A stretch of DNA of 64,000 nucleotides from Sulfurospirillum sp. UCH001 (GCF_001548035.1 NZ_AP014723.1:2356001-2420000), one strand, 5' to 3'; positions 2 to 59,173 are shown, counted from the first letter of the stretch. Translations and numbers: made by a program. The notes: generated from the sequence alone by a model not told the origin.

Positions 2-322
2 CCTGTCGAACTCAAGGTCGATTTTGAACTCTTTGGTGTTGTTTTGAAAAATCTTTTAGACAATGGTGTAAATTATGCTCATGATCACCGAGTTACTTTG
101 AGTAATGACCTCCATACCATCACCGTGTCTAACCATGCCCCTGCATTAGAATTCTCTCTTGAGCGCTATGCTGAACCTTACTTTTTAGAGGGTAAAAAGC
201 AAAAAAGTGCCCGTGGACTTGGCTTTGGATTGTTTATCACATGGCATGTGATTCGTCTCCATGGTATGCGATTGGAGTACAAACGTGAGGGTGAAATGAA
301 CCATTTCATCATTTATATATAA
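2..322 (+). CDS. Sensor histidine kinase, C-terminal end (5' truncated by window)
   Basis: Only the ATP-binding (HATPase_c) part of a histidine kinase is present; the open frame runs in from before base 1. Visible motifs are the N box (KNLLDNGVNYA) and a glycine-rich G2 box (GLGFGLFI). The fragment resembles the C-terminus of the complete ArsS-type kinase encoded at 9451-10731, which also reads VDFELF..KNLLDNA and GLGLGLYI, so it is probably another kinase of that family. Its input domain and partner regulator lie outside the window. The identity as a kinase is firm; the stimulus is unknown. Confidence 0.85.
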   Translation, partial: PVELKVDFELFGVVLKNLLDNGVNYAHDHRVTLSNDLHTITVSNHAPALEFSLERYAEPYFLEGKKQKSARGLGFGLFITWHVIRLHGMRLEYKREGEMNHFIIYI

Positions 323-333
323 AACATCTCGAC

Positions 334-360
334 AGGTATAGAGATAGTATCTCTATACCT
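334..360. terminator. Bidirectional hairpin between convergent genes
   Basis: A perfect 12-bp inverted repeat (AGGTATAGAGAT / ATCTCTATACCT, 3-base loop) lies between the kinase gene and the convergent GNA1162-like gene. It is a likely shared terminator, although the T tract is weak on both strands. Confidence 0.6.
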
Positions 361-373
361 TCTACATTCGATA

Positions 374-38824: not shown

Positions 38825-39727
38825 ATGGAAGAAGCTGCCCCGCTATCCAAGGTTAAACATGCTAAATGCGCTACACTATACGGCAACAAAGCTTATGAGG
38901 TTAATGTCGAATCAACCTTAGTACGAGCTCTTCCTGGCTTCATCATTGTAGGAATGGCCGATCAATCCATTCAAGAATCACGCGAGAGAATAAAATCAGC
39001 TCTTGCGAGTGTTAACTTTCAGTTTCCTGCTCAAAAAATTACTATCAATCTTTCTCCTTCTGATCTTAAAAAAGAGGGAAGTCATTTTGATTTAGCGATT
39101 GCATTGTTGATTGCCATACAAAAAGAACGTTTTACGTGTAACGATTTTTTTATCTTTGGCGAATTAGGTCTTGATGGAAAAGTAAAAAAAACAAACACCA
39201 TTTTTCCGATTATTCTTTCATTAGCGTCTCACATACCCAATTTACGTGTCTTAGTCCCCAATGAGCTGCTTTTAAAAGTGCAACAAATACCTAATATTAG
39301 GGCATATGGTATTGAAACACTCCATGATGCCCTACTCTTTTTTAAAGAAAAACGTTTTGATACAGAAACACCTGCAGATCACCAAGGTTTTTGCGAAACT
39401 ATTTTAGAAATTGAAGGTAAACACTATTTTTACAATACTCAGTTTCCACTTGATTTTAGTGATGTGCTAGGACAACATCGAGCTAAACGAGCGATGATGA
39501 TTGCTGCTGCTGGTATGCACAACCTTTTAATGGAAGGAAGCCCTGGATGCGGTAAAAGCATGAGCATTAAACGCTTACGCTATATTTTACCTCCTCAAAG
39601 CATTGAAGAGATACTCGAATCCAATGCCTACCAATCGTTACAAGAAGAAGATGTCGAATTAAGTCCACTAAGACCGTTTAGAGCCCCTCACCATACCTCC
39701 TCTCGCCCTTCTATCTTTGGAGGGGGA
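38825..39727 (+). pseudogene. comM: comM (yifB), 5' part, interrupted by a Tn7-like element
   Basis: Codons 1-301 of a 511-codon Mg-chelatase-like AAA+ protein. An N-terminal Lon-type S5 fold (GFIIVGMADQSIQESRERI; FPAQKITINLSPSDLKKEG) is followed by Walker A in LMEGSPGCGKSMSIKRL (about 236-247). The reading frame runs into the transposon after RPSIFGGG and ends at 39775 after 16 foreign codons. ComM is a branch-migration helicase needed for efficient natural transformation. The insertion separates Walker A from Walker B (encoded at 62065-62697), so the ATPase is broken unless the halves assemble. Confidence 0.95.
39723..39727. repeat. Left target-site duplication (GGGGA)
   Basis: These five bases GGGGA immediately precede the TGT end of the element and are repeated at 62060-62064 right after the ACA end. 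A 5-bp duplication is the rule for Tn7-like transposition. Confidence 0.92.
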
Positions 39728-39752
39728 TGTAATTTTCAACAAAAGATACGAC
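39728..39752 (+). repeat. Left terminal inverted repeat with outer TnsB-like site
   Basis: It begins TGTAATTTT and contains CAACAAAAGATACGAC (39737-39752). It aligns with the inverted right end TGTCATATG..CAAAGAAAGATGCGAA, sharing TGT-AT, CAA, AAAGAT and CGA. The consensus across all sites is CAAyAAAAAATrCGAC. Confidence 0.85.
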
Positions 39753-39756
39753 TATG

Positions 39757-39772
39757 CAATAAAAATTGCGAC
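39757..39772 (+). repeat. Second TnsB-like site, left end
   Basis: CAATAAAAATTGCGAC lies 20 bases inside the outer site, close to one helical-turn multiple. Tight spacing like this is typical of the R end of Tn7. The site ends 24 bases before the first gene start, so TnsB binding may also control that gene. Confidence 0.7.
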
Positions 39773-39795
39773 TAATTAAATTCTAGGAGAATTCA

Positions 39796-41502
39796 ATGAC
39801 CTCTGAGGCTGTAGATTTATTAGATTTAACGCTAACAACTTTCCCTAAAGATAAAAAAGTCACTGTATTCTCATATGGTAGTATTTATCAATCTGAAACT
39901 AATTATTCTATAGCCATAATTTTAAAAGAACTATATCAAGAAAATCCTTCTTATATGGTGTCATATATCAATTTGAAAGAATTATTTGCGTTTTCTCTTG
40001 GTACTGTTATTGATAACCAACGAAAGACTGGATTAAATTCAGGTAGTATTGATTCATTTGAAATAAATATTCATTCTGGATTATTAGAACAAAGAAAAAT
40101 AAAAGATATCCCTCAATTAAAAGCCTTTTTGGAGCAAATACCCGCAAAAATTAATGGATATAGTGCGCTGTGGCATAAAAATCAACAAAACTACTCTATA
40201 TTCACTGATACTAATGGCAGAACTATTATTTTTCCTCATTATGAGATTGCAAGATATTTTTATTTTACATCATCATCAATGACAAGGCAAATCATGGCCA
40301 TATCATCAGAAAATAACGCATTATTAGATGGATTATATAAAAAAGTACAACTAAAGAATGGAAAAGGAGAATTAAATCTCAAGTTTAATGCGAATAGTAA
40401 CGATGCTGAAAATATTTTTCGATTTGCAATTGATCCTTATGCAAAAAATATGTGGCATCAAGTTCGTAGAGATTTATCTGCAAGTAAAATTACAATTGAT
40501 GAAAACAAAAAACGCAAAGGATTTAAGGATTTTTCTCCTGAAATGATACTATCAGCAAATTTTCCAACTTGCGGCAAAACTAATTTTACTGCAAGAGTTA
40601 AAAACATCGATGAAAAGACATTACTTGTTCTTAGAATATTACAAGAAGATACTTTCTATCCATTTGAAAGCTTAAAAGTAATTAGAGAATTTTCTAATGG
40701 AAAAGAAGAAATAATTGGAGTTATCAAGAAAAAAGCACCAACTAAGAAGAATTTAACACATAAAATTAAACCAACAACTCCAAATACTGCATATACAACT
40801 GTTAATGTTATAGATCATGATGCAGATGATAGTTTAGAGGCAAAGCTCGACTTATTAAATAAAACCATAGAATTTGAAACAAAAATAATTGACGAAGAAG
40901 ATAAAGAAGTTACTAGAAGTGATGATACAACCGATAAGGAACTAGATTTAAGCGCTAAAGATGCAGAAGGGCAAGGCAACTTAAATACAGCCGAAGAAAA
41001 TCTAAAAGAACAAAATGACAATGAACGAGATTTTGTTACACTCGAAGACTTCAAAAGAATGCTTCTCTATTGTGCTGAAGCCAATGATGATTTTTCCTAT
41101 AAAATTCTCAAAGATAGCAAGCTACCACAAAAGCCTGAAAAAGATGAGAAGAGTCGATATCAATGGAAAAGATCAAAATTATCAGATGGTATCACTCCAA
41201 GAAAATATATTGTTGTAGAAATAAAATTTAAAGAAATAAAGTTTGTGGTTATTGAAATTCAAAAAGATATTGTCGTAGAGGCGATGAGTACCCTTATGAT
41301 TGATGATTCTCAAAATAACATAGATGCATATATCATCGAAAAAATTATTTTGAATATCGCGAAAACAAGCAATAGTTGGTTGCAAGGATTGGACTTAAAT
41401 GTGAAATCAAAACCATTTTACCATTCTCGTGAAAAAGAAAAAGTTGATATTCAAGATTGGGGAAATCGATTCATAAAGATGTTGAAAGAATACAATTCGT
41501 AG
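39796..41502 (+). CDS. Possible TnsE-like transposition protein
   Basis: This is a 568-residue protein, the first gene inside the left end. The N-terminal part (1-330) has no recognised domain. A charged linker follows (about 345-425, rich in Asp, Glu, Lys). The C-terminal ~140 residues contain RKYIVVEIKFKEIKFVVIEI and EAMSTLMI, then SWLQG, a layout and length close to TnsE (538 residues in Tn7), whose C-terminal domain binds replication-fork DNA. The position inside a Tn7-like end supports a transposition role, but the location away from tnsABC is unusual and I cannot confirm the family. The ribosome-binding site is AGGAG at 39784. Alternatively it is a cargo protein of unknown function. Confidence 0.5.
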   Translation: MTSEAVDLLDLTLTTFPKDKKVTVFSYGSIYQSETNYSIAIILKELYQENPSYMVSYINLKELFAFSLGTVIDNQRKTGLNSGSIDSFEINIHSGLLEQRKIKDIPQLKAFLEQIPAKINGYSALWHKNQQNYSIFTDTNGRTIIFPHYEIARYFYFTSSSMTRQIMAISSENNALLDGLYKKVQLKNGKGELNLKFNANSNDAENIFRFAIDPYAKNMWHQVRRDLSASKITIDENKKRKGFKDFSPEMILSANFPTCGKTNFTARVKNIDEKTLLVLRILQEDTFYPFESLKVIREFSNGKEEIIGVIKKKAPTKKNLTHKIKPTTPNTAYTTVNVIDHDADDSLEAKLDLLNKTIEFETKIIDEEDKEVTRSDDTTDKELDLSAKDAEGQGNLNTAEENLKEQNDNERDFVTLEDFKRMLLYCAEANDDFSYKILKDSKLPQKPEKDEKSRYQWKRSKLSDGITPRKYIVVEIKFKEIKFVVIEIQKDIVVEAMSTLMIDDSQNNIDAYIIEKIILNIAKTSNSWLQGLDLNVKSKPFYHSREKEKVDIQDWGNRFIKMLKEYNS

Positions 41503-42563: not shown

Positions 42564-42718
42564 ACAAAAAACCTCTAACTAATGAAGATACTTTTTAAAG
42601 CGGGATATTAGCATATCAATGTGAGATTTGTGGGTGATATGAATCAAGTCATCTTATATTGTAAAAGACTATTCTGATATTATTAAACTGTAGATTTCAA
42701 TTACTAGTGAAGGTAACA

Positions 42719-43786
42719 ATGGAAAATATCCCTTCTGGAGATATATTTAAAGAATTAATCTCTGCTTTTGGGCAATTAAAGTCCAATATAAAATTGATAA
42801 ATGACAACTACTTTGATATTCTAGGCTATAGTCATTATGAAAATATAAATAGTAATATCCTAGCTTATTATCTCTCATCAGAAAATGGACATAATTTTCA
42901 TACATATTTTTTAGAAGCACTGTGTGAACTTTTAAAAATTGAAAATATTGATTTAGAATATTCTCGTACATTTAGAGAATATTGGACTCAAAAAGGTGGT
43001 AGGTTAGACATTCTGATAGAAACACATAATTGTGCTATTGGCATAGAAAATAAAATTTTTAGTAGGCTTTACAATAACCTAGATGATTACTACAAGACAG
43101 TTGAATCAAAAAATCAACAATCAAGCTATCTATGCGTATTATCGTTAAAGAAGGAACACAATACAAGCGGATATAAAAATATTACACATATCGATTTATG
43201 GAATAAAGTTTTTGAAAAAATTCCTTTTGAAGAATTTCGAGAAAATAAACATATAATATTTATACAAGAAGTCAAGCAAAATATTGACAATCTCAGTAAC
43301 GGAAAACAAAAAATGAATGACCAGGAAAAAGCTTTTGTCCTTAAATATGAGAACGAAATTCAACAAATTTTTACATTGAAATCTAATTATGAGAAAGAAT
43401 TAAAGCAAAAAATCATCAACTTACAACAAAAAATAGAAGAGAAAGGCATCTACCAAAAGAAAATCCAAATGGGCATTATTCGCTTAAATAATGACGGTAG
43501 CTATATCTTAGACTATATTTTATTTGCTGATTTTAATCTTGATGGCATTATTCTTGCTATAGATATTGTTTTAAATAAGCATGGCGAATGGAAAATTATC
43601 TTGCTTGATAGAGAAGGTGGTAAGTTGTCAAACAATCTTACTAATCTACTTAATTCTAGACATATTGATTTTGAAGAAATTACTTATGACACTATGCAAA
43701 GAGCACAAATAATGACTTCTTCAAGTAATGAATCAGATATTTTAACATCAATAACACATATTTGTGAAAAGCTTAAATTAGCTTAA
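42719..43786 (+). CDS. PD-(D/E)XK nuclease superfamily protein
   Basis: This is a 355-residue protein from the ATG at 42719, which follows AAGG at good spacing; a GTG at 42707 is an alternative. The N-terminal half has YENINSNILAYYLSSENGH and GGRLDILIETHNCAIGIENKI, the D-...-ExK active-site pattern of the PDDEXK_4 branch (Asp of RLDILI and Glu/Lys of GIENK). The second half is coiled-coil-like (NYEKELKQKIINLQQKIEEK) with a variable C-terminus. These proteins are common in defence islands; the target is unknown. No methyltransferase is nearby, so it is not a standard restriction enzyme. Confidence 0.75.
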   Translation: MENIPSGDIFKELISAFGQLKSNIKLINDNYFDILGYSHYENINSNILAYYLSSENGHNFHTYFLEALCELLKIENIDLEYSRTFREYWTQKGGRLDILIETHNCAIGIENKIFSRLYNNLDDYYKTVESKNQQSSYLCVLSLKKEHNTSGYKNITHIDLWNKVFEKIPFEEFRENKHIIFIQEVKQNIDNLSNGKQKMNDQEKAFVLKYENEIQQIFTLKSNYEKELKQKIINLQQKIEEKGIYQKKIQMGIIRLNNDGSYILDYILFADFNLDGIILAIDIVLNKHGEWKIILLDREGGKLSNNLTNLLNSRHIDFEEITYDTMQRAQIMTSSSNESDILTSITHICEKLKLA

Positions 43787-43828: not shown

Positions 43829-45982
43829 TTATATATAATTACTATTTATTATTTTTCCACCATTTTTCCCTTGTCCAGGACCAATTTCAATAATATAATC
43901 ACATTGGTCCAAAACATATTTGTTATGTTCTATAATAAAAATTGTGGAATCGTGATTGAGAATATCATCAAATAATTTAAGAGTTTTTGAAATATTTTGT
44001 TTATCAACACCAGAAAAAGCTTCATCAATTATATAAATTTTTTTTCTATTGGTGTAAGATATATTTTTTACAATCTTTAATCTTTGTGATTCGCCCCCTG
44101 ATAGTGATGAAATTTCTTGAAATAATGTTAAATAACCCAATCCTAATTCTGCCATATATTTTAATTTTTCACTGATTTTTTTTACATTTTGAAAAATATT
44201 GGAATATATCAATTGCTCAATAGGCATTTTTAAAATATCTAAAATATTTAAATCATGATATTTATAAGACAATGCTAGCTGGTTAAATTTATTTCCATGG
44301 CATTTTGTACAAGTATTTTTAATTATATCGCCAAAGGGGATATCTATAAATGTATATCCTTTACCATTACATTCTTCACATGCACCACTTTCATCTGTAA
44401 AAGATATATTATTCTTAGAAATTTTATTATATTTACAAAATTCATTTTTTATACAATCGAAAATCTCTATATATGTTGCAATAATTGAGTTAATATTCCC
44501 ATGTAAAGGTTTCTGCGAAATATATGTAGAATTATCTAAATTCTGATGTAGTGCAATAGCTAGCGATGTTTTCCCCGAACCAGAAGGACCACAAATTCCA
44601 ATTAAAGAGTTTAATGGGAAAGTGATTGAAATATTAAGAATATTATTAAAACTAATATTTTGAAGGCAAAATAGATTTTGCTTTTCACTGTGCTTTTGTC
44701 TTTTATAAATAATGTTATTATCAATAAATTTTTCAACAATCATCCCACCATTTATACCTGCACCAGGTCCTAGATAGATAGCTTTATCACTTGCTTGAAT
44801 AAATTTTTCATTATGGTCTATAAGAAGTATCGTATTCCCTCTGTTTTTTAAAGAAATAATTTGCTCGAGAATACCGTCCAGTTCTTTATAGTAAATACTC
44901 GAAGAAGGTTCATCTAAAATATATAATATATTAGAAATATTTGAATGTAAAATATTTGAGAGTCTTAATCTTTGTAATTCTCCACCAGAGAGCGAAGGGA
45001 TAGAACGATTAAGTGTTAAATAACCTAGATTAGAAGCAATAAATGTTTTTAATACCATGAGAATAGTTTTAACGATCTGATTTATATCTTCTTGGTTGAT
45101 TTTCATGAATAGTTCAAATAATTCTGTAATTTCTAGAGAATACATATCTCCAATTGAAAGGCTAGCAATTTTGTAATCTTTAAGCTTATCTGAAAAACGA
45201 CTTCCATAACATTTAGTACAAAGTATTTGTTTTACATAAGATTTTATTTTTTGATTATCAGATTTTTGATTTGATTTAATATATTGATTAATCTCTGTTA
45301 ATACGCCGATAAATGGAAATAATTTATTTTTATATGTGTTTTTTTGTTTAAATTTAATTGCATATTTCTTTGTAGAGATGTCCGAATAGAGTATTTTTTT
45401 CAAATCCTGTTTAGAAAGACAATCTAAGCTTAAATCTAAAGGAATATTATTATCCTTACAGTATTCATATAGTAAGGGATAATAATGATTACTTGTAAAA
45501 TTATTCCAAGTTTTAAAAGGGAATTCTTTTAGAGATTTTTTATAATCAATAATGAGGTTATCATCAGGAACAAATTCATAACCTAAGGCGTTACAATTTT
45601 CGCATGCACTAGTATAATTATTAAAAGAAAAATCTGAATATTTAGCATGGAATTTATATGCAAACATCTGTTTGAAATAATGATCAATTCCCGTAAAAGT
45701 AGCAATTGTTGATTTCGGATTGGTATTGTAATTGAGCTGCTTTAACGCGGCTGTCGGAACAATATTTTCATAAGAATCAATATCTAGAAAAGTATTTTCT
45801 TCATTGACCCCAAGAATTTTGTTAAATTCATATTTGGATATTTTTTCTATAGTTTCATATGCTAATGAAGTTTTACCTGAGCCATTCGGACCTGATAATG
45901 CAATCATTGTATTCTTTTCTAAAGAAATATTTATATTTTTTAAATTGTTTGTTCTAACACCAAAAAAATTAATATTTTTCAA
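43829..45982 (-). CDS. UvrA-like twin ABC ATPase
   Basis: This is a 717-residue protein with two UvrA-type ABC halves. Walker A motifs are GPNGSGKTS (residues 31-39) and GPSGSGKTS (about 465). Signatures are LSGGELQRLRL (about 332) and LSGGESQRLKI (about 629). Zinc-module cysteines are CENC/CTKC in the first half and CEEC/CTKCHG in the second. It is shorter than repair UvrA (about 940), lacking most insertion-domain sequence, like the class that includes self-protection proteins of DNA-binding antibiotic producers. It is divergent from the peptide/E1 genes, sharing a 125-base promoter region. It may protect DNA or expel a bound ligand; that role is inference. There are no membrane segments. 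Confidence 0.85.
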   Translation of the reverse strand: MKNINFFGVRTNNLKNINISLEKNTMIALSGPNGSGKTSLAYETIEKISKYEFNKILGVNEENTFLDIDSYENIVPTAALKQLNYNTNPKSTIATFTGIDHYFKQMFAYKFHAKYSDFSFNNYTSACENCNALGYEFVPDDNLIIDYKKSLKEFPFKTWNNFTSNHYYPLLYEYCKDNNIPLDLSLDCLSKQDLKKILYSDISTKKYAIKFKQKNTYKNKLFPFIGVLTEINQYIKSNQKSDNQKIKSYVKQILCTKCYGSRFSDKLKDYKIASLSIGDMYSLEITELFELFMKINQEDINQIVKTILMVLKTFIASNLGYLTLNRSIPSLSGGELQRLRLSNILHSNISNILYILDEPSSSIYYKELDGILEQIISLKNRGNTILLIDHNEKFIQASDKAIYLGPGAGINGGMIVEKFIDNNIIYKRQKHSEKQNLFCLQNISFNNILNISITFPLNSLIGICGPSGSGKTSLAIALHQNLDNSTYISQKPLHGNINSIIATYIEIFDCIKNEFCKYNKISKNNISFTDESGACEECNGKGYTFIDIPFGDIIKNTCTKCHGNKFNQLALSYKYHDLNILDILKMPIEQLIYSNIFQNVKKISEKLKYMAELGLGYLTLFQEISSLSGGESQRLKIVKNISYTNRKKIYIIDEAFSGVDKQNISKTLKLFDDILNHDSTIFIIEHNKYVLDQCDYIIEIGPGQGKNGGKIINSNYI

Positions 45983-46073
45983 TGAAAAACCTTTCAGAAT
46001 AAATATATTGAGGTCATGATATGAATTGCAAAGTTTTAATGGTATAAAAAAATATTTTTTAGTTATTACTTGT

Positions 46074-46079
46074 TATAAT
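46074..46079 (+). promoter_or_regulatory. Extended -10 promoter element before the peptide gene
   Basis: TATAAT preceded by TG (TGTTATAAT) is the extended -10 form; it lies 29 bases before the start at 46108. The -35 region is A+T-rich without a clear motif, usual in Campylobacterota. The ribosome-binding site CGGGAG follows at 46095-46100. Confidence 0.6.
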
Positions 46080-46107
46080 ACAACAATATAAATTCGGGAG
46101 CAAGATA

Positions 46108-46323
46108 ATGCAATTAACAGATGAACAAGAAAAAGAGTTCCTTCATGTAGGCTTTGTTGAGATTGAATCGCTTGAGGAATTATCAGCTCAATACTCAGCT
46201 GGATGTTCAGGTGGTAGATCTGATTGCTGCACAAGAGTTTGTTCACAGGACCAAAATTTTGTATCAAGCACAAATGACTGGGAAAGATTTTTAGAAGTAA
46301 AAGGTGGTCAAGTTCAATACTAA
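46108..46323 (+). CDS. Cys-rich putative precursor peptide
   Basis: This 71-residue peptide has an acidic N-terminal part (MQLTDEQEKEFLHVGFVEIE) that would serve as leader. A Ser/Gly/Cys-rich core (AGCSGGRSDCCTRVC, Cys 33, 40, 41, 45) lies in the middle, and a C-terminal tail ends EVKGGQVQY. It has its own promoter and good ribosome-binding site, and its stop overlaps the start of the first E1-like gene (TAATG). Small size, Cys/Ser/Thr core and coupling to two enzymes with leader-binding domains suggest a ribosomally made, modified peptide. No product class is recognised. It could also be a small Cys-rich regulator. Confidence 0.7.
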   Translation: MQLTDEQEKEFLHVGFVEIESLEELSAQYSAGCSGGRSDCCTRVCSQDQNFVSSTNDWERFLEVKGGQVQY

Positions 46324-47456
46324 TGAACCGAGACTATAAAACCTTTGTTCTTAGAGATGGTGTTGATTTATACTATGATGAGACATTAGAAGTTGCGATA
46401 TTCATTTTTCTGGCAACAAGGAAGAGAATAAAACTTAAAATTCGAAAAGAGTTTATTCTTCTTGTTAGTTCAATGGATGGAGCAACAATCCTTCATGATA
46501 AGTTTATTTCTTATGCATTTTCAAGTCAAGAAATTAAAAATTTTTATAATCTCTTAGATTATCTATATGAACATAATATTTTAATTGAGAAAGATTGGAT
46601 TAGACTATTAGATTTTGATGATGATTATATAAAGTTATATGATAGACATTTTAAGTATTTATTAGATTTGACTTGTGGTGGCATTAAGGAAATAGAGCTT
46701 ATCCAAAAAAGAATTTTTACTACAAAAATTGCAATTTTTGGCTTGGGCGCTGTTGGTGCATCATTAGCAAGAGAATTAGTAATGCTAGGGTTTGTAAATT
46801 TTCTTTTAATTGACTATGATAATGTTGATGAGCAGGATATCTCAAGAAACTTAATATATAATAATTTAAGTATCAATAATTCTAAGACAGAAATTTGTAA
46901 AAAAATGCTTTTATCAGTGAATAAGCATGCAAATATCACTACTAAAGAACTAATATTAAATACTGATACCAAATTAGATTTTTTAGATGACTATGATTTT
47001 ATAATTAATAGTGCAAATACACCTTATATAGGCTATACAAGTATCAAGCTCTCAAGATATATCTTAAATACAAAAAAAATACTTTTTATATGTGGCGGAT
47101 TTGATGCTCATTTGGCAAGTTTAGGCGAGCTTATTATCCCAGGAATAACACCTTGTTCTGATTGCTATACAACTTATTTTAGTAAAGCTCTTCAAGATTG
47201 GAAACCAATGCCTCATCCTAAACAAAATAGAACAAAAGTTTTTGGTGGTTTGTCTAGTCTCAGCCTTTTTTCTGCTTCTGCGGCAGCTATGCAAATTTTG
47301 AAATATTTTATTGATTATAATCAAGCAAATATACTTGGAGGAAGAGGTGAATTTTTGTTTGATAACTATATAGTAGACAAATTTGAAGTACCTAAGGATG
47401 AAAATTGTCAATTTTGCAAAAACTTAAAATCAAATATGAACTCCGAGGTTCAGTAA
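46323..47456 (+). CDS. RRE-ThiF/E1-like protein 1, probably catalytically altered
   Basis: This is a 377-residue protein. Residues about 30-95 form a PqqD-like winged-helix leader-binding (RRE) domain (LKIRKEFILLVSSMDG; FYNLLDYLYEHNILIEKDW). Residues 135-370 are a ThiF/MoeB/MccB-type adenylating domain: GLGAVG (140-145), DYDNVD and SRN (Arg175), and a zinc site CSDC / CQFC. The conserved Asp that binds Mg-ATP (CADN in the partner, Asp230) is Asn232 here (NSANTP), so this copy may not adenylate. It overlaps the second E1-like gene by 52 bases. It probably acts as a binding partner or scaffold. Confidence 0.8.
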   Translation: MNRDYKTFVLRDGVDLYYDETLEVAIFIFLATRKRIKLKIRKEFILLVSSMDGATILHDKFISYAFSSQEIKNFYNLLDYLYEHNILIEKDWIRLLDFDDDYIKLYDRHFKYLLDLTCGGIKEIELIQKRIFTTKIAIFGLGAVGASLARELVMLGFVNFLLIDYDNVDEQDISRNLIYNNLSINNSKTEICKKMLLSVNKHANITTKELILNTDTKLDFLDDYDFIINSANTPYIGYTSIKLSRYILNTKKILFICGGFDAHLASLGELIIPGITPCSDCYTTYFSKALQDWKPMPHPKQNRTKVFGGLSSLSLFSASAAAMQILKYFIDYNQANILGGRGEFLFDNYIVDKFEVPKDENCQFCKNLKSNMNSEVQ

Positions 47457-48778
47457 GTTTTATTCCCTCATTACACAATCCAAATTTTGTAGAATTTTTT
47501 AAATCCAACACAAGAATTAGTCTAAAGCTATATCTTGACAGAAAGTTGAAAGAGTTAGTTCAATTCCTTGACGGAACCAAAGAATTGCATGAATTAATAA
47601 ATGAGTTAGATATTGATCAAGATAAAGCATTTGGATTTATCCAATATTTGGAGGATAATTGTTTAATTCAAACCAATGATATTTCCTTGCTAATAGAAAA
47701 ACATAAATGGAACCATGTATTAAATTTTTTAGCAGATTACATTAAATATGATGAATTAATGACACGATTTTCTCAATTACAAAACAGCCATGTTGTAATC
47801 GTTGGATTAGGTGCTGTTGGTAGTTGGACAGCTATTCAACTCGCAAAAACAGGTATTCAGCATTTCGTATTGGTTGATTTAGATAAGGTAGATATTAGCA
47901 ATCTTAATAGATCTTTTTTTTCCGAAGAACATATTAATGAATATAAAACATATTCTATTAGGAAGCAACTCCTAGAAATTAATAATAAAATTAAATGTGA
48001 TGAAAAAAATATTTTAATGACTTCTCCCGAACAGATTGAAAAAATTATTATAAATATTAAATCACAAAATATTGTAGTTATTAATTGTGCTGATAATCCC
48101 AATGTTGATATTACTGCATCTTTAGTTCATCAAGCTTGCATTAAATATAAAATACCTTATATTATTGCAGGGGGATATAATTTACATTTAACTCTCATTG
48201 GACCCTCAATTATCCCATTTGAAACTGCTTGTTTTGATTGCATCCAATTTCAACTTAATTTCAATGACCCAGTAGATGAGATAATTAATTCAAGAAAGTT
48301 GGTTAGACCTAATAGAAATATAGGGAATATAGCATCAACATCAATAATTTCAAGCACATTTGTGGTAAACGAGACATTAAAAATATTACTAAAATCAAAA
48401 AAATTGTATCCCACAATGACTAATAGGAGAGGAACAATTAATTTTTTTGATAATGATATAAAATTTACTAATTTTTTCAAAATGCCAACTTGTAAAAGTT
48501 GTGCTACAGACAGTAAAATTTTAAATTTGGATCATTTTATTAATCTACTATACAAAGAAATATCTAATATTGAGAATATAGCTTTAATAGATAATAAATT
48601 ATGTTTTGATAAAAATATTTATATGGATCTAGAATTGGTTATAGACTCTTTAAAAAAGATGAATTATAATTTATCCAATTTTCATAAAATAAATTTAGAA
48701 TATTTACACTTGAGCAATCAAGCTTTGAAGCAATATGAAATGTTACTTTCAAATACTTATCTTCGACAAAATGCTTAA
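47405..48778 (+). CDS. RRE-ThiF/E1-like protein 2, adenylating enzyme
   Basis: This is a 457-residue protein starting at TTG 47405 (or TTG 47414), inside the end of the previous gene. The N-terminal RRE-like domain is clear: LDRKLKELVQFLDGTKELHEL and GFIQYLEDNCLI, the PqqD pattern. The E1-like domain has GLGAVG (134-139), VDLDKVDISNLNR (Arg169), Asp230 in NCADNP, and zinc Cys pairs CFDC and CKSC. About 80 further residues at the C-terminus have no match. Like MccB, it may adenylate a peptide C-terminus or side chain. YcaO is absent, so azoline formation is not supported. Confidence 0.82.
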   Translation: MSILQKLKIKYELRGSVSFIPSLHNPNFVEFFKSNTRISLKLYLDRKLKELVQFLDGTKELHELINELDIDQDKAFGFIQYLEDNCLIQTNDISLLIEKHKWNHVLNFLADYIKYDELMTRFSQLQNSHVVIVGLGAVGSWTAIQLAKTGIQHFVLVDLDKVDISNLNRSFFSEEHINEYKTYSIRKQLLEINNKIKCDEKNILMTSPEQIEKIIINIKSQNIVVINCADNPNVDITASLVHQACIKYKIPYIIAGGYNLHLTLIGPSIIPFETACFDCIQFQLNFNDPVDEIINSRKLVRPNRNIGNIASTSIISSTFVVNETLKILLKSKKLYPTMTNRRGTINFFDNDIKFTNFFKMPTCKSCATDSKILNLDHFINLLYKEISNIENIALIDNKLCFDKNIYMDLELVIDSLKKMNYNLSNFHKINLEYLHLSNQALKQYEMLLSNTYLRQNA

Positions 48779-48833: not shown

Positions 48834-51800
48834 ATGAGCGATATAGAACTAAAGAAAATTTTAGAATTCTGGCATATTCAAGAATTTTTATTGCCGCAGT
48901 CACTCGAAAATATAGATAAAATCAATGACGATACAAAAAGTTTGCGAAAAGCTTTTGCAGGAAATACTAATAATGTTGTCAAATGGATTTATGAAAAATT
49001 AAAATACCCACCAAAAGACGATTATATTTGGCAATTTATGATTTATGGTGGAATTTATAAAATTGAAGATGTTAAAAAACAGTTACTGACTTTTTTTGAC
49101 GAGGAAGATGACGTAGAAAGTAGAGAGATAAAAGATAATGCTGCTACTTTTTCTTTAGCATTAGACCCGACTACTCAAAAAATTAAATTAGATGACATTC
49201 AGGTTTCAACAGTCCTTTGGGCATTAAAACAAATTTCAAAAGATCCTAAAAATTTTAATTTATCATTGCCTAATTTTAATAAAGAACTCGAATTAATGGT
49301 AGCTACACTTCAACAAGACGTTGGTTCTCTCTCAGACGACAAATTAACATTGGAAGAAGAAATCAATAAAGTTGCAACAATTGCTTTTCAGATTTTCGGT
49401 TTTGATGCAATATCTAATTGCACAAATTTTATAGTCATTGCAACTCAAAAATCTCAAAAAAATGCAGCACAAGAGAAAAATGATAATGATATATTGAATA
49501 GTTTTTTTATTGAAGATATTAATAAAACACTAACCTTTCTTAAAAATGGAAAATCTGACAATCTTATAACGCAATATCTTAATATGGATGAAAGTGCCGT
49601 CAAGAATAACCGAACTGATATCAGAAAAAACTTGGAATATTCGTATAACATACTTGCACCTATGAATTTTCCTGATGCGTGTTGGCCTACAAATGAACAT
49701 CACCCTCTCGTTTATAGCCAGCAGTTTGCGATTAATTCCATAATCAAACGATTTAATAGTACTTCTAATGGTTTTTATGGTGTCAATGGCCCTCCAGGAA
49801 CAGGAAAAACCACTATGTTAAGAGATTTAATTGCTTATGTGGTCACAGAGAGAGCAAAGATTTTAGCTCGTTCTGAAAATCATGAAGTACTATTTCAATC
49901 AAGCAAAGCAAAGCAAGCTTGGAAAACTGAAAATTGGACACAGTATATTAACCTTTTTACAGAAGATTTACTTGGCTTTGAAATGGTTGTGGCTTCAAGC
50001 AATAATGGTGCAGTTGAAAACGTAACTTTAGAAATTCCAACCCAAAAAAGTATTGACCCTTCTTGGTTAGAAAATTTCGATTATTTTAAAGAAATAGGAA
50101 CTCGAATTATTAAAGAATCTAAAGTATCGGCTTGGGGTATGGGTGCAGCTTGCCTTGGTAATGCTTCAAATAAGAATGCTTTTGTCTCTAACTTTTGGTA
50201 TGAAGATAAAAAGGAGCATGCAAAAACAATTCAAGGATTTAAAGATTATTTGTTAAAAATCAAACAACGTAGTGAAGATGACTTAATAGCTGAATGGAAA
50301 TTGGCTCGAAAAAGTTTTCAAGATGCATTGAACATGGTTCAAAAAATGAAAAAGGAAAAGAATTCTATTTATACTTTGGCTGAAGAGTATAAAGCAAAAA
50401 CCCTAAATGAGAACAAGCAAATAACTGCACTTATTAGCGAAAATAGTGAATTAGAGAAGAAAATTGCTACTGATGTGAAATCGATTGATCAAACTGAACA
50501 ATTAATCCAAAACAAAAAATCTGCTTCACAACAATTTGAATTTTTCCTACAAACCTTAGATAATAAGATATCAACCATAAGTGTAAATTTGAGCGATACT
50601 AAAGAATTATTAAATGCTCATAGTCGGAGAAAAATGAGCTTCCTTGAAACTATTCTTGATTTGATATTTTCTAAAGGTAAACGTAGCAAAGCATGGAACA
50701 ATAAAATGGTCCTATTAGAACAAGATGAGCAAAATTTTGGTAATGATATCATAGGACTTAAAAAAAAGAAATCAGAAACTCAGTTAGATTTGGAGCAAAT
50801 TTCTTTTAATGTTACTAAGCTTGAAAAGCAAAAACAAGAATATGAAGAAAATATAAACAAATACAAGCTATTGATTTCTCAAAATACTTCAAAAATAGCT
50901 ACTCACAAAAAAAGTAAGGAAGAATATGACCGTCTTTATCAGTCTGCATTAAAGACACAACACCAGCATGAAAAACGTAGCGATAAAGACACTGAACGCG
51001 AATTGTCTTCCCCATGGATGGATGATGAATTTTTTAAAGCTAGAGCCAAATTATTTATAGAGGCTTTAAATCTTCATAAAGCATTCATTCATGTTAATGC
51101 TAAAAAAATTCAATCAAACCTTTTATGTATCATTGATATTCTTCAAGGAACAGTTCGCGCTGACACTGAATTTAAAGAAGCAGTAAGACATGCTTGGGCA
51201 ACATTATTTTTATGCGTACCTGTTGTTTCTACAACCTTTGCTTCGTTCCCAAGGCTCTTTAAACATTTTTGGAATCATGAAATTGGTTGGCTACTTATTG
51301 ATGAAGCAGGACAAGCCCCTGCACAAGCTGCAGTAGGTGCCATTATGCGTTCAAAAAGATGTATTGTCGTTGGGGATCCTTTGCAGTTAGAACCAATTAT
51401 TGGACTTCCTTTATCTATACAAAATATTTTAAGAAAAAAAGTTAATGCACATGATGACTCATTATTGCAACGAACCTCTGTGCAAAAAAGAGTTGATTTT
51501 ACTGAAACGAATGGTACATATCTTGAAGATACGAATAACAATAATAAGATATGGGTCGGTTCACCTCTTCGTGTTCACAGAAGATGCAATAATCCCATGT
51601 TTGAAATATCTAATTCAACAACGTATTTAGGAATGATGGTTCAAGGGAAAAAAGATGTTATTAATAATCTTCCTATGAGTCAATGGTATGATGTGCAATC
51701 ATTGGAATCTAGTGGAAATTGGATTCCAGATGAAGGCAAAAAAACACAAGAACTCATTAATGATTTGTCTACTCTAGGCATAACATCAAAAGAACTTTAC

Positions 51801-52121
51801 ATTATTAGTCCATTCAAAGATGTGATAAAAGGGCTAAAAGCGCTTTTTGCTTATTCTAAACAAGTCGATTCAAAAAACAAAATTGGTACAATTCATACAG
51901 TACAAGGCAAAGAAGCAAAAGTTGTTATATTGGTTCTTGGAAGCGATCCTAACAAAGATAACTCACGAACTTGGGCGGCTTCAAAACCAAATTTATTAAA
52001 TGTTGCAGCCACAAGAGCAAAAGAAAGGTTCTATATAATTGGGAATCAAAGGCTTTGGGGAAATAAACAATATTTTAAAGACGCATTGGCATTATTGAAT
52101 TTAAATTCAAGAGAGATATAA
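48834..52121 (+). CDS. Large SF1 (Upf1-like) helicase with coiled-coil insert
   Basis: This is a 1095-residue protein. Residues 1-300 have no recognised domain. Walker A is GVNGPPGTGKTTM (about 317-329). A long coiled-coil insert (about 490-720) interrupts the first RecA domain. Motif II is LLIDEAGQAPAQA (about 819), motif III VVGDPLQLEPI (about 844), and motifs V/VI are IHTVQGKEAKVVIL (about 1020) and NVAATRAKERFYII (about 1055). This is the Upf1/Sen1/Dna2 branch of SF1 helicases, common in phage-defence loci. There is no nuclease domain. A hairpin overlaps its stop. It starts 55 bases after the E1-like gene and could be co-transcribed, but is likely a separate cargo module. Confidence 0.85.
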   Translation: MSDIELKKILEFWHIQEFLLPQSLENIDKINDDTKSLRKAFAGNTNNVVKWIYEKLKYPPKDDYIWQFMIYGGIYKIEDVKKQLLTFFDEEDDVESREIKDNAATFSLALDPTTQKIKLDDIQVSTVLWALKQISKDPKNFNLSLPNFNKELELMVATLQQDVGSLSDDKLTLEEEINKVATIAFQIFGFDAISNCTNFIVIATQKSQKNAAQEKNDNDILNSFFIEDINKTLTFLKNGKSDNLITQYLNMDESAVKNNRTDIRKNLEYSYNILAPMNFPDACWPTNEHHPLVYSQQFAINSIIKRFNSTSNGFYGVNGPPGTGKTTMLRDLIAYVVTERAKILARSENHEVLFQSSKAKQAWKTENWTQYINLFTEDLLGFEMVVASSNNGAVENVTLEIPTQKSIDPSWLENFDYFKEIGTRIIKESKVSAWGMGAACLGNASNKNAFVSNFWYEDKKEHAKTIQGFKDYLLKIKQRSEDDLIAEWKLARKSFQDALNMVQKMKKEKNSIYTLAEEYKAKTLNENKQITALISENSELEKKIATDVKSIDQTEQLIQNKKSASQQFEFFLQTLDNKISTISVNLSDTKELLNAHSRRKMSFLETILDLIFSKGKRSKAWNNKMVLLEQDEQNFGNDIIGLKKKKSETQLDLEQISFNVTKLEKQKQEYEENINKYKLLISQNTSKIATHKKSKEEYDRLYQSALKTQHQHEKRSDKDTERELSSPWMDDEFFKARAKLFIEALNLHKAFIHVNAKKIQSNLLCIIDILQGTVRADTEFKEAVRHAWATLFLCVPVVSTTFASFPRLFKHFWNHEIGWLLIDEAGQAPAQAAVGAIMRSKRCIVVGDPLQLEPIIGLPLSIQNILRKKVNAHDDSLLQRTSVQKRVDFTETNGTYLEDTNNNNKIWVGSPLRVHRRCNNPMFEISNSTTYLGMMVQGKKDVINNLPMSQWYDVQSLESSGNWIPDEGKKTQELINDLSTLGITSKELYIISPFKDVIKGLKALFAYSKQVDSKNKIGTIHTVQGKEAKVVILVLGSDPNKDNSRTWAASKPNLLNVAATRAKERFYIIGNQRLWGNKQYFKDALALLNLNSREI

Positions 52122-52522: not shown

Positions 52523-55500
52523 ATGAAATTAGCTATTCTCCATCTTAGTGATGCACACATTAAAAAAGAAAAGACGAACAATTCATTATTTGAAAAAGAA
52601 GAAGCAATTTTTAATGCAATTAAAAATGAAATAACCCATTGTTCAAATTTATTTATTGTTTTTACTGGAGATATTGCATTCACTGGACACAAAGATGAGT
52701 ATACAATCGCCAATATTTTTTTTCATAATATTAGTAAATTTTTATCGGAATATAACCATTCTATAAAAATAAACTTTGTTTTTGCTCCAGGGAATCACGA
52801 TTGTAACTTTTCGATAGGACAAACAGTCAGAGATATTGTGATTAAATCAATTTTGGAACATCCATCACAAATAGACCAACATGTTATTGACATTTGTACA
52901 GAATCCCAAAAAGATTATTTTGAATTTATTGAAACATTCCATTCAGAAAAAAATATTAATCAGAATATTTCTAATAAGCTTTTAATACGATACGAGTTTA
53001 AAATTGATAATTATTCCATATCATTTAATTCTTTTAATACCGCATGGATGTCACAAAAGCAAGAGCAACAAGCAAAAATATTATTTCCACTAAATGCGAT
53101 TAATCAAGAAAAAATTGTTGAATCACAGGATGATTTAACAATCTCAATTTTCCATCACCCTCAACACTGGTTAACTCATAGTAATTTAAGAAATTTTAAA
53201 GAATTTGTAGACTCATGTAGTGATGTCGTTTTGACAGGGCATGAGCATACACAAAGTGCTTCTCAAACTCATAACATTAGCAGCCATAAAAATGTCGAAT
53301 ATATTGAAGGAGGAACACTACAAGATTCGCATGATGCCACTCATAGTAAATTTAACTTATTACTAATAGATCTACAAACAAAAAAACATGATATTTTTAT
53401 TTTTGAATGGCATAAGTCTATTTATAATAAAATTGCAAATGAAGGTATTGAGTTACCCTTATGTAATAAATCTCTTTTTCAACTTAACGAACTGTACAGC
53501 AAAAAAATATCTTCCTTACCACTTAAACTAAACCACCCAAGAAAAGAAAATATAATTCTTGAAGATATTTATATATATCCTGATCTAAGAACATTAGAAA
53601 TTCACAACAACAATAAAACTGCAAATGCATTTAATAAAATTTCTTCACGAGACTTATTAAAAGAATCCCCTATAAAAAAAGTGATTATTTTTGGTAAAGA
53701 TAATGCAGGGAAAACGTCATTAGCTCATATGCTTCAAATTAAATTTAAAGAAAAAGGCTTAATACCATTAGTAATAAATGGAAAAGAAATAAAAAAAATC
53801 AATAATGATAAAATCATAGAAAATACGCTTACTAAAGCTTTTAAAGAGCAGTATGAAATTAAAAAGAATGAGTTAACTACCTTTCAACAAGAAGATAAAA
53901 AAAATATAGTTATTATTTTTGATGATCTTCAATATATAAAATTCAATAATCAAACAAAAGGAGAATTCATTGAGAAATTTGAAAAATTAGGATATACGCA
54001 AATAATTGTATTCTCTGATGCTGAATTAGAGTTTGAAGCAACATCAGAAAGTAATCTTGCTAAATCATTGCAGAATTTTTCATATTATCATATATTAGAG
54101 TTTGGCCATGTTTTAAGAGATGATTTAATAAGAAAATGGATAATTTTAGGACAAGAAAGAGAACTTGAAAATGATGAAATAGCAGCTATTAGAAGGACTA
54201 AGGCCCATGCAATAACACATACGTTGGGTTTAAATTTTATTCCTTCCTATCCTTTTTACTTACTAACATTGTTACAAGCGATGGAGGCAAATGACACAAC
54301 TGTAGACAAAAGTTCTTATGGTCACTATTATCAATATATGATAATGCAATATCTTACTAATTATGGTGAGCCATTAGAGAATAAGGATTTAAATACAATT
54401 TTTGGATATTTATCAATGTTGGCTTTCAAAATGTTCAGTGAAAAAAAATATATTTTGGATCAAATTGAATTAGACGAATACGATTTGTCTTATAAAAAAT
54501 ATATTGGGTATACACCAAAACTTAATCTTCAAAAAAAAATACTTCAATCCCATTTGCTTGTAGAGTCTGATTATGAATACAAATTTTCTCATAAATATCT
54601 TTATTACTATTTTGTTGCATACTATTTTTCACAAAACGTAGATGATGAAGGAATTACAACAATAATTGATAATATGACACAAAGGTTGTATAGAGCCGAA
54701 TTTGCAAATATTCTAATGTTTATTTTTCATTTATCTCCTAAAAAAGATATCCTGGGAATGCTAAATCGAGAAGCAAAAAAAATTTTTGCAGATCTTGAAG
54801 AATTTTCATTTACACAAAATGAATTATTAACGATTAACAATTCTATTCATGAAAATATGACAAGTAAACTTGAGGATAGAACATTTGAAGAATCACGAAG
54901 AATCGAACTAGAACAAGAAGAAAAAAAGGATGCTTTTATCCATGCAAATCACATTGATGACCAACGAGATGCAAGCCATAATGAAGAAATTCAAAATTTA
55001 GATATTTTTGGACAAATAAATTTAGCATGTAAATTAATTGATATCTTGGGAGAAGTTGTAAAAAATTATGCTGGTACGTTAAAATATGAGCCAATATATG
55101 AACTCATTCAAAACACCTATGGAATGGGGTTACGAAGTTTAAAAAGAATATTTATTGATGTTGAAGAAAATCACGAATTAATTGTTCGAGAACTTCAAAA
55201 TTTGATTGACAAAAAAGGTTTTGTAACTACTGATAAAAAAGATGACGCAATTAATAAATTTGTTTTTAATCTTGCTACATCTGTTGCAACAGGCTTTATT
55301 AAAAGAATTTCACAAGCTATTGGGGACCCTGAATTAAAATCAATTTATAATAAAATTTCAAAAGAAGACCCCAATAATATTGCCTATAAATTAATTGAGC
55401 AGTCAATAAATCTAAATTTTAATGGGGGATTAAATTCACGTAAAATTATTGAATTATACGATTATCTAGATAAAGAAAAGAATTCTTTGACAAGCACAAC

Positions 55501-55636
55501 TCTCAAACATTTAGTTATGGCGCATTTATATAAATTTGATGTATCTGCTGACAAAAAAATGTCAATTTGTAGACAATTGGATATTACCATATCTCCTAAA
55601 ACTGAATATAGTAAAAAAGTAGGACTTAAAACATGA
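52523..55636 (+). CDS. Metallophosphoesterase + P-loop (STAND-like) NTPase
   Basis: This is a 1037-residue two-part protein. The N-terminal calcineurin-like phosphoesterase (1-290) has all metal motifs: SDAH (10-12), GD (50), GNHD (90-93), HH (211-212) and GHEH (239-242). A P-loop domain follows with Walker A GKDNAGKTS (391-399) and Walker B IVIIFDD (Asp467-468). A helical region resembles STAND/NACHT NTPases (FGHVLRDDLIRKWIILGQ, then a winged-helix-like part). The C-terminal ~350 residues are a likely sensor region. An effector enzyme joined to a sensor NTPase is the layout of bacterial NLR-like anti-phage proteins. The family is not one I can name. Confidence 0.75.
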   Translation: MKLAILHLSDAHIKKEKTNNSLFEKEEAIFNAIKNEITHCSNLFIVFTGDIAFTGHKDEYTIANIFFHNISKFLSEYNHSIKINFVFAPGNHDCNFSIGQTVRDIVIKSILEHPSQIDQHVIDICTESQKDYFEFIETFHSEKNINQNISNKLLIRYEFKIDNYSISFNSFNTAWMSQKQEQQAKILFPLNAINQEKIVESQDDLTISIFHHPQHWLTHSNLRNFKEFVDSCSDVVLTGHEHTQSASQTHNISSHKNVEYIEGGTLQDSHDATHSKFNLLLIDLQTKKHDIFIFEWHKSIYNKIANEGIELPLCNKSLFQLNELYSKKISSLPLKLNHPRKENIILEDIYIYPDLRTLEIHNNNKTANAFNKISSRDLLKESPIKKVIIFGKDNAGKTSLAHMLQIKFKEKGLIPLVINGKEIKKINNDKIIENTLTKAFKEQYEIKKNELTTFQQEDKKNIVIIFDDLQYIKFNNQTKGEFIEKFEKLGYTQIIVFSDAELEFEATSESNLAKSLQNFSYYHILEFGHVLRDDLIRKWIILGQERELENDEIAAIRRTKAHAITHTLGLNFIPSYPFYLLTLLQAMEANDTTVDKSSYGHYYQYMIMQYLTNYGEPLENKDLNTIFGYLSMLAFKMFSEKKYILDQIELDEYDLSYKKYIGYTPKLNLQKKILQSHLLVESDYEYKFSHKYLYYYFVAYYFSQNVDDEGITTIIDNMTQRLYRAEFANILMFIFHLSPKKDILGMLNREAKKIFADLEEFSFTQNELLTINNSIHENMTSKLEDRTFEESRRIELEQEEKKDAFIHANHIDDQRDASHNEEIQNLDIFGQINLACKLIDILGEVVKNYAGTLKYEPIYELIQNTYGMGLRSLKRIFIDVEENHELIVRELQNLIDKKGFVTTDKKDDAINKFVFNLATSVATGFIKRISQAIGDPELKSIYNKISKEDPNNIAYKLIEQSINLNFNGGLNSRKIIELYDYLDKEKNSLTSTTLKHLVMAHLYKFDVSADKKMSICRQLDITISPKTEYSKKVGLKT

Positions 55637-55748: not shown

Positions 55749-56393
55749 ATGCCTGCACGAAAAATACCAAAAAACTACCGCTCATCAACAGGTATATTTC
55801 AAAGTTATAAAAACAATCTATCTATCGCTTATGAATCATTGCTTGAGAGAGATTTTTACTTATTACTAGAATTTAATCAAGAGGTTGTCGCTTATGAAGA
55901 GCAGCCATTCACTATTCGTTATTTGAGAAATAATGCCACATACAAATATACTCCTGATTGCTTGGTCTATTTTCATGCCAGCAACAAAAAACTACCTTGT
56001 GTATTTGAAATAAAATATAGCAGTGAACTTAAAGAAAAAAAAGCTTTTTTTGAAGAAAAATTTAACCAAGTTGAACAATATTTATTGGAAAATGATATGG
56101 ACTTCAAAATGTTTACAGAATTAGATGTGGATCCTACGTATCTTGCTAATGCAAAATTACTGTACTCCTATGCAAATTTGCAAAACCAACGGCTATTATC
56201 ATCCATTTTAGAAATCAGCTCAAAATATGGAGAACTTTCACTGAATGCGCTTTTAAATCATATCAGTACAGACCGCTATATACAAGCAGAAAATTTGCCA
56301 TATATATGGCACCTTGTTTTTCAGAATAAACTCAAAATTGATATGTTTAGTCCAATAAATAACCAAACCATGGTAGGACTTTCCAATGCATAA
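55749..56393 (+). CDS. tnsA: Tn7-like transposase endonuclease subunit TnsA
   Basis: This is a 214-residue restriction-endonuclease-fold protein that cuts the 5' strand at element ends. The catalytic pattern is YESLLERDFYLLLEF (Glu33), YTPDCLVYF (Asp70) and VFEIKYS (Glu87, Lys89). The C-terminal winged-helix part (residues 150-214) would contact TnsC/TnsB. It is the first of four overlapping transposition genes; tnsB starts 8 bases before its stop. TnsA with TnsB gives cut-and-paste movement rather than cointegrates. Confidence 0.9.
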   Translation: MPARKIPKNYRSSTGIFQSYKNNLSIAYESLLERDFYLLLEFNQEVVAYEEQPFTIRYLRNNATYKYTPDCLVYFHASNKKLPCVFEIKYSSELKEKKAFFEEKFNQVEQYLLENDMDFKMFTELDVDPTYLANAKLLYSYANLQNQRLLSSILEISSKYGELSLNALLNHISTDRYIQAENLPYIWHLVFQNKLKIDMFSPINNQTMVGLSNA

Positions 56394-58269: not shown

Positions 58270-58279
58270 AGGATTATTT

Positions 58280-59173
58280 TTGCAAAATACGAACCTTCTT
58301 CCAGCCGTTCGAGATGTATTGAATTTCTCGAATGAAGAGCGATGCCTTTTTATTCTAAAAGAAAGATGGTTTCCCTATCCCATTGCCAAAAATATACTCA
58401 ATGAATTAGAATTTCATTTAAAACACCCTAAAAAAAGTAGAATGCCTGGCCGTCTTATCGTTGGAGGCACTAACAATGGTAAAACTTCTATTATTAATAA
58501 ATTTATTAGAAGTCATCAACCATATGACGATGAAAATGTCAAAATCATTCCTGTCATATCAGCTAAAGCTCCTGAGAGCTCTAGCATATCTGATTTATAT
58601 GGAGTGCTTTTATATCAATTAGGTATCCCTTACCGAAACACTGATCGAGTGAATAAAAAGCGTGAACAAGTACAAGAGATATTTGCATTATGTCAAATTA
58701 AAATGCTCATTATTGATGAATTACATAATATTTTAGTGGCCTCTGTTCCCAAACAAAAAGCATTTATGGTTGCACTAAAAAATTTAAGTAACGAGTTAAT
58801 GATGCCAATCATATTAGTAGGTACAGCAGATGCTTTGCATGCTATTAACTCAGATGCACAACTTAGTAATCGTTTTTCGCCCTTAGTCCTTCCAAGATGG
58901 CAATATACCGATGATTATAAAACATTACTTGCAAGTATTGAAGCGACACTTCCTTTGCACAAAGAATCCAATATAGCTACCTCAGAAGAAATTGCACTCT
59001 ATATTCTAGACCAATCAGAAGGCTATATTGGTGAAATTATTGATTTCGTCAATTATGCAGCACGCTATGCTATTGAAAATAAAATTGAAAAAATAAATAT
59101 GGATTCTCTGAAAAACTGTGGGTTTGTAAAACCTTCCATGCGAAAAAATATTGCAAATTTAATTGACATATGA
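58280..59173 (+). CDS. tnsC: Tn7-like AAA+ regulator TnsC (TniB-type)
   Basis: This is a 298-residue AAA+ ATPase with Walker A GGTNNGKTS, Walker B MLIIDELHN, and sensor region LVGTADALHA. It selects the target together with TniQ and activates TnsA/TnsB. I prefer the TTG at 58280, which follows AAAGGA at good spacing just after the tnsB stop; the ATG at 58205 would overlap tnsB by 65 bases and add unrelated residues. It is short, like TniB/TnsC of the Tn6022/Tn5053 groups. Confidence 0.9.
   Translation: MQNTNLLPAVRDVLNFSNEERCLFILKERWFPYPIAKNILNELEFHLKHPKKSRMPGRLIVGGTNNGKTSIINKFIRSHQPYDDENVKIIPVISAKAPESSSISDLYGVLLYQLGIPYRNTDRVNKKREQVQEIFALCQIKMLIIDELHNILVASVPKQKAFMVALKNLSNELMMPIILVGTADALHAINSDAQLSNRFSPLVLPRWQYTDDYKTLLASIEATLPLHKESNIATSEEIALYILDQSEGYIGEIIDFVNYAARYAIENKIEKINMDSLKNCGFVKPSMRKNIANLIDI

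Follow-up and report, generated by a model that had tools for sequence, protein, structure and literature searches.

The stretch analysed here (the window) comprises 64,000 nucleotides of Sulfurospirillum sp. UCH001 (GCF_001548035.1 NZ_AP014723.1:2356001-2420000) and contains a compact cassette of four genes in ~5 kb. Three of these lie on the + strand and encode a cysteine-rich peptide of 71 residues (46108..46323) and two paralogous proteins, E1A (46323..47456) and E1B (47405..48778), in each of which a predicted recognition element (RRE) of the kind found in enzymes of ribosomally synthesized and post-translationally modified peptides (RiPPs) precedes a ThiF/E1-type adenylating fold. The fourth gene, on the − strand at 43829..45982, encodes a UvrA-like ATPase of 717 amino acids with two ATP-binding cassette (ABC) halves, and is separated from the operon by a divergent intergenic region of 125 bp (45983..46107). 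A sequence-only reading of this DNA had placed a three-gene peptide pathway at 46108-48778; the three genes are there, but the UvrA-like gene was omitted from it. The peptide with its four cysteines is present as claimed, and so is the coupling by overlapping stop and start codons: the TAA of the peptide gene shares one base with the ATG of E1A (TAATG), and E1A and E1B overlap by 52 bases. We infer that E1B starts at the TTG at 47405, inside E1A and with AAGGA upstream; the TTG at 47414 is a possible alternative.

The peptide reading frame is preceded by a Shine-Dalgarno-like GGGAG and translates as MQLTDEQEKEFLHVGFVEIESLEELSAQYSAGCSGGRSDCCTRVCSQDQNFVSSTNDWERFLEVKGGQVQY, followed by the stop codon. 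Orthologous peptides adjoin orthologous E1 pairs in 22 loci, and therefore the peptide is not a product of chance; a chance reading frame is also ruled out by conservation and by the low ratio of nonsynonymous to synonymous substitution (dN/dS). In close pairs, dN was 0.007-0.09 and dS 0.4-0.9, which corresponds to a dN/dS of ~0.02-0.12. In the relatives the reading frame is maintained, and the peptide, of 60-72 residues, is strongly conserved. Alignment of 16 precursors showed that F16, C33, S38, C40, C41, C45, W58, L62, G67, Q70 and Y71 are invariant. The N-terminal region (46108..46203), likely the leader that binds the RRE, carries a [LV]-x-F motif, which reads LDLSFEV in the majority of relatives; a Leu stands two positions before F16 in 14 of the 16 sequences. 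The core C33..C45 (CSGGRSDCCTRVC, 46204..46242) has four cysteines in the pattern C-x5-7-CC-x3-C in all precursors, with a variable segment that is CSGSRSDCCTRVC in the majority, CkTNGtSTCCSTYC in Pantoea, Cedecea and one Pectobacterium, and CTSGGSSGCCTAIC in Zoogloea. The tail W58..Y71 (WERFLEVKGGQVQY, 46279..46320) follows the pattern W-x2-[YF]L-x4-G-x2-QY-COOH in all precursors and is at least as important as the cysteine core. No acidic residue is invariant in the family: Glu63, which follows the conserved Leu, is replaced by Gln in three precursors, and the Asp preceding the CC pair is substituted in six. The C-terminus, always QY-COOH, is the sole carboxylate that all precursors have in common.

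The earlier claim that both enzymes join a PqqD-like domain to a ThiF domain was borne out by two kinds of evidence. The ThiF domain was detected by Pfam (2e-24 in E1A, 1e-35 in E1B), and the PqqD-like domain was recognized structurally. AlphaFold models of the two proteins, built from alignments of 16-17 rows (mean predicted local distance difference test score, pLDDT, 74.5 and 77.1), contain an N-terminal winged-helix RRE followed by the E1 domain. In E1A the predicted RRE spans residues 7-90 (46341..46592; beta-beta-beta-beta-alpha-alpha-alpha, pLDDT ~83-91), and in E1B residues 10-90 (47432..47674; pLDDT ~79-93). The microcin C enzyme MccB of E. coli, which had been named as the closest known logic, is the closest solved structure and the best PDB sequence match of both proteins. 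Residues 9-368 of the E1B model match MccB with a Z score of 30.7 and a root-mean-square deviation (rmsd) of 2.7 over 324 aligned residues (Foldseek 8.7e-21). The E1A model matches MoeB (Z 25.8), and it matches MccB 6..366 over both domains with the RRE rotated (Z 24.7, rmsd 11.5). In both cases the match takes in the peptide-clamp/RRE domain of MccB. A weak match of E1B to TIGR03882 (0.0022) was also obtained.

The two proteins differ in their catalytic residues, an asymmetry that, like the invariant tail of the peptide, goes beyond the earlier reading. The roles of the positions compared are established for the MoeB/ThiF family. In E1B, residues D158, D160, N166, R169, K181 and D230 and two CxxC pairs are invariant in 18 of 18 sequences. 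E1A retains GxG, K188 and the CxxC pairs; its second Asp is replaced by Lys in 17 of 19 sequences, the Arg is lost in two, and Asp232 is Asn in the window. We thus describe E1B as the canonical subunit and E1A as a pseudo-E1 subunit with a degenerate catalytic signature. When single-E1 outgroups were included in a tree, E1A formed one group (support 99) and E1B another (94), and therefore one ancestral pair has been inherited together. The copies in the window are the most diverged of the family. The window E1B also has a helical C-terminal extension of ~90 residues (~369-457, 48509-48775; a low-confidence prediction) that is not present in the aligned relatives.

The protein encoded at 43829..45982 is related to UvrA but lacks the UvrB-binding domain. 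Its partial match to TIGR00630 covers profile positions 3-112, 267-650 and 678-917 and skips 113-266, which we take to be the UvrB-binding region; alignment with the separate canonical UvrA of the same genome (938 aa) showed the same gap. Walker A, LSGGE and the zinc-module cysteines are kept in both halves. Its solved relatives include Ecm16 (7sh1, 4.8e-80), with canonical UvrA scoring higher. The gene is adjacent to the peptide-E1A-E1B set in 20 of the 22 loci, 15 times downstream on the same strand and five times divergent upstream (the window included); L035-L038 have the same divergent layout. A fusion of full-length E1B with the full-length UvrA-like protein, in a single reading frame of 1096 residues, occurs in L040 (Pectobacterium sp. 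CFBP8739) and argues for functional coupling. Self-resistance in clusters for DNA-binding drugs is a known role of UvrA relatives that lack the UvrB-binding domain (PMC10413001; for Ecm16, PMC10192343), and such proteins have served as a mining marker for intercalator clusters (PMC10413001). By analogy, the UvrA-like ATPase probably protects the producer from the product of the cluster, and because such proteins confer self-resistance to DNA-binding drugs, that product would be directed at DNA. A scan for promoters and terminators gave nothing above chance. The protein also resembles mad3, a MADS protein in PADLOC (2.4e-44), probably through shared UvrA/ABC ancestry.

The 22 intact sets, counting the window, are distributed over Pseudomonadota, Campylobacterota and Fusobacteriota, and E1A and E1B are both present in every one. 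Two of the sets, identified by tblastn, are on plasmids, one from Acinetobacter johnsonii and one from Moraxella osloensis. Of the 20 loci that a scan of bacterial genomes with the E1B alignment yielded, 16 have the peptide together with both E1 genes; they come from Pantoea, Cedecea, Pectobacterium (three), Acinetobacter, Zoogloea, Methyloprofundus, Ignatzschineria, Shewanella, Aliivibrio, Pseudomonas (four) and a metagenome-assembled genome of Leptotrichiaceae. A profile of the peptide alone recovered three loci absent from that profile (L057, L093 and L094), and both E1 genes adjoined the peptide in all three; in L093 and L094 the UvrA-like gene follows as well, which gives the order peptide-E1A-E1B-UvrA. 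Further peptide matches in L060-L062 and L087 (G635, G505, G338 and G1017) were short fragments and were treated as chance; no E1 genes accompany them in L060-L062.

The distribution of the cassette is rare and patchy across distant bacteria, and the cassette is mobile. It was found in 4 of 298 sampled genomes of the phylum of the window (the window included), 1 of 149 Acinetobacter-family genomes, 3 of 296 from the Pectobacterium order and 2 of 98 Fusobacteriota, with one clear match among 249 genomes of the Pseudomonas genus sample; these counts include the seed genomes themselves. The P0003 search found no second close copy in 60 relatives, the matches away from the window being weak and mainly in the ThiF domain, and therefore the genus as a whole is not characterized by the set. 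The Cedecea cluster had no match in 5,426 E. coli genomes. Near-identical cassettes with different distal flanks in three Pseudomonas species (L036, L037 and L038) suggest recent horizontal transfer. A phage-borne origin was rejected, as no member of the cluster was found in viral contigs with P0003, the E1B alignment or the peptide alignment, apart from one remote E1 fragment (L045). In Helicobacter muridarum the whole cassette is present in decayed form (L041, 6570-11046): a stop interrupts the reading frame of the peptide, and those of the E1s and the UvrA-like protein are fragmented. Apparently decayed copies occur in two other Campylobacterales genomes (L058 and L059).

From these sequences we infer that the precursor is modified by the E1 pair, and our preferred model, to which we give slightly less than an even chance, is that an E1A:E1B heterodimer cyclizes the peptide into a DNA-binding product against which the UvrA-like ATPase protects the cell. 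In the MccB homodimer both monomers contribute to the peptide clamp (PMC12250964), and for the macrocyclase IndF a model places the peptide on the RRE of one monomer and the peptide C-terminus in the active site of the other (PMC12150305). By the same logic, E1A and E1B are proposed to form a single heterodimer, a split and specialized form of the MccB homodimer. An RRE would hold the LDLSFEV leader while the tail ending in QY threads, as we presume, into the active site of E1B, which would adenylate the carboxylate of the C-terminal Tyr. This site of activation is proposed because no other carboxylate of the precursor is invariant. The thiol of a conserved Cys in the same peptide, or the indole of Trp58 as in IndF, would then capture the activated carboxylate with loss of water to give a macrocycle. 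The product would bind DNA, and the UvrA-like ATPase would strip it from the host DNA or exclude it, as DrrC does with anthracyclines and Ecm16 with echinomycin.

We place the cassette with the E1-dependent RiPPs, with a biological role that is possibly new. The described members (microcin C, pantocin A, GRC, enterofaecin and indolylamide) use a single E1, as a homodimer or a monomer. MccB shares with the present enzymes the RRE/peptide clamp, the E1 fold and two CxxC motifs; however, it is one enzyme instead of two distinct paralogous subunits, its substrate is a heptapeptide ending in Asn and not a long cysteine-rich precursor ending in Tyr, and its cluster has a major facilitator superfamily (MFS) exporter, whereas here no such exporter is conserved and a UvrA-like partner is present. 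The indolylamide macrocyclase IndF of Streptococcus is likewise an RRE-ThiF protein that activates a C-terminal carboxylate, and its peptide has a Trp near the C-terminus; in contrast to the present cassette, IndF clusters encode one E1, a protease, a transporter and a peptide whose core is short (EDTTNWYFI), instead of two E1s and a peptide with four cysteines, and the invariant Trp58 lies 13 residues before the C-terminal Tyr, compared with 3 in IndA. The thiolactone macrocyclase GrcB, PaaA (pantocin A) and EnfB (enterofaecin) also combine E1-type adenylation with capture of the carboxylate by an internal nucleophile, but each is a single E1. GrcB joins the side chain of a Glu near the C-terminus to a Cys, together with a RaS radical S-adenosylmethionine (SAM) enzyme. 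The cassette falls outside the GRC class: the cysteines of the window peptide lie 26-38 residues before the C-terminus, Glu63 is not invariant, and the loci share no extra enzyme. PaaA forms a bicycle from a Glu-Glu core, for which the present precursors have no invariant acidic residue. The flanks of the loci were found to contain no conserved exporter, protease, uptake-related gene or other shared extra enzyme. The sequence-only reading had noted the absence of YcaO, radical SAM and LanM enzymes, and none was found among the scanned neighbours in the window; azole (and azoline) RiPPs, which use YcaO, and the sactipeptide and lanthipeptide routes are thus rejected.

With respect to self-resistance, DrrC and Ecm16 are, like the present ATPase, double-ABC UvrA relatives without a UvrB-binding domain that are encoded within a biosynthetic cluster, and here both ATPase halves are intact; the compounds they guard against, e.g. 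anthracyclines and echinomycin, belong to other classes. We found no report of a UvrA-like self-resistance protein paired with an E1-made RiPP, and the open-access full-text literature gave no relevant paper on RRE/E1 peptide pathways that involve UvrA or a pair of E1s.

Several observations weigh against the cyclization model. The Pfam scan did not detect a PqqD-like domain in either E1, and the alignments behind the two E1 models are shallow. With GxG and Lys188, E1A retains some of the ATP site and could still be active. The UvrA-like gene is missing near two intact sets, L029 and L057, and the E1B-UvrA-like fusion is known from one draft assembly. In L057, a Campylobacterales set, a reading frame of 87 aa (MGFWNKAWDLTKKGAKYVGEGIRETQ..., 5620-5883) stands between the peptide and E1A, and could encode an alternative accessory or immunity protein.

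The product may be a peptide weapon or an anti-phage agent aimed at DNA. In the window, the cassette is flanked by genes for an MkoC-like helicase (48834-52121) and a PDC-S26-type PD-(D/E)XK nuclease (42707-43786), which together make up a defence island within a transposon; the anti-phage protein DS8 (metallophosphoesterase and NTPase; NCBIfam, above the cut-off) is encoded at 52523-55636. Strong phage-defence genes were found in 7 of 15 independent contexts: next to those of the window, BREX on the A. johnsonii plasmid, PDC-S37/Hhe in Pantoea, Mokosh-like genes on both sides in A. variabilis, RADAR in Pectobacterium, Gabija in Ignatzschineria and TmtA in Aliivibrio. The locus L094, found later, has Lamassu-like genes on one side and a type I restriction system on the other. 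Among 20 control regions of the same genomes, defence genes were found in two, or in three if a methyltransferase is counted (Fisher p 0.019-0.047); the positives were a BREX island (L074, assigned by BLAST), one PDC-S32 and the methyltransferase. DinG was excluded from the control count as housekeeping, and first-round matches to HerA, SIR2 and E1-E2 were allotted to L074 by elimination. The controls were uneven, as the regions were longer and some reading frames were scanned in one of two rounds and a few in none. The enrichment is marginal, so that the link to phage defence is suggestive, not proven, and the co-location could also be explained by shared use of mobile elements. An intracellular chemical defence, in which the matured cysteine-rich RiPP attacks phage DNA while the UvrA-like protein clears the host chromosome, is conceivable but unlikely.

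Equally unlikely, in our judgement, is a bacteriocin made by the same biosynthesis, which would leave the cell by lysis or through a host exporter and kill competitors, with the UvrA-like protein as its immunity protein. The E1-made RiPPs of assigned function, microcin C and pantocin, are antibiotics, and plasmid and other mobile contexts and a patchy distribution would fit such a role; however, genes for export, proteolysis or uptake are not conserved here, in contrast to the MFS exporter of microcin C clusters and the protease and transporter of IndF, and about half of the contexts contain phage-defence genes. The modified peptide might instead serve the UvrA-like protein as cofactor or ligand, so that the complex itself would sense or remove foreign DNA and the two would not be toxin and antidote. 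The tight linkage, the natural fusion with E1B, the Walker and LSGGE motifs kept in both ABC halves and the defence systems among the neighbours agree with this idea, which we nevertheless regard as rather improbable, given that the UvrA-like proteins of this type known from biosynthetic clusters are self-resistance proteins and that two sets have no such gene nearby.

The pairing of a canonical with a degenerate E1 half also recalls, by analogy, the eukaryotic SAE1/UBA2 and APPBP1/UBA3, which, in contrast to E1A and E1B, have no RRE and act on a ubiquitin-fold protein and not on a short peptide. A miniature ubiquitin-like conjugation, in which the heterodimer joins the peptide C-terminus to cellular or phage proteins, would agree with this E1 logic, the invariant C-terminus and the lack of a protease; E1-type defence systems exist, and weak PADLOC E1-E2 matches were obtained, via the ThiF domain only. 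We consider it very improbable, as the peptide does not resemble ubiquitin in sequence and its last residues are QY instead of GG, neither an E2 nor a deconjugating (JAB) protease is present in the window cluster, the loci share no such partner, and RRE domains are typical of RiPP enzymes. A peptide carrying adenosine monophosphate at its C-terminus, as in microcin C, has just as slight a chance in spite of MccB being the best fold and sequence match, because the succinimide route of MccB needs a C-terminal Asn (PMC12250964), the precursors are far longer than the 7 residues of MccA, and an MccC-type exporter is missing.

A matched pair of canonical and degenerate subunits would show heterodimeric E1 logic occurring naturally in bacteria, and its substrate would be of a size that can readily be dissected. 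A ribosomal peptide directed at DNA is what the UvrA-like partner points to, an action that we did not find reported for E1-made RiPPs, and a product acting on phage DNA, if true, would tie RiPP chemistry to anti-phage immunity. One genome-mining study of RRE-ThiF fusions sought clusters with proteases and a transporter (PMC12150305), and therefore cassettes like this one could have been overlooked.

In the window, the peptide cassette is cargo of a Tn7-like element. A TnsA-like gene (55749-56393, a sub-threshold NCBIfam match) is followed by genes that we read as TnsB-, TnsC- and TniQ-like (56386-60111), and a TnsE-like protein is encoded at 39796-41502 (sub-threshold match). Terminal inverted repeats at 20/24 identity were not found between ~39650-40000 and 61150-62050. 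A comM-like (Mg chelatase) gene is apparently in two parts, at 38825-39775 and 61981-62697, with the Tn7-like element in between.

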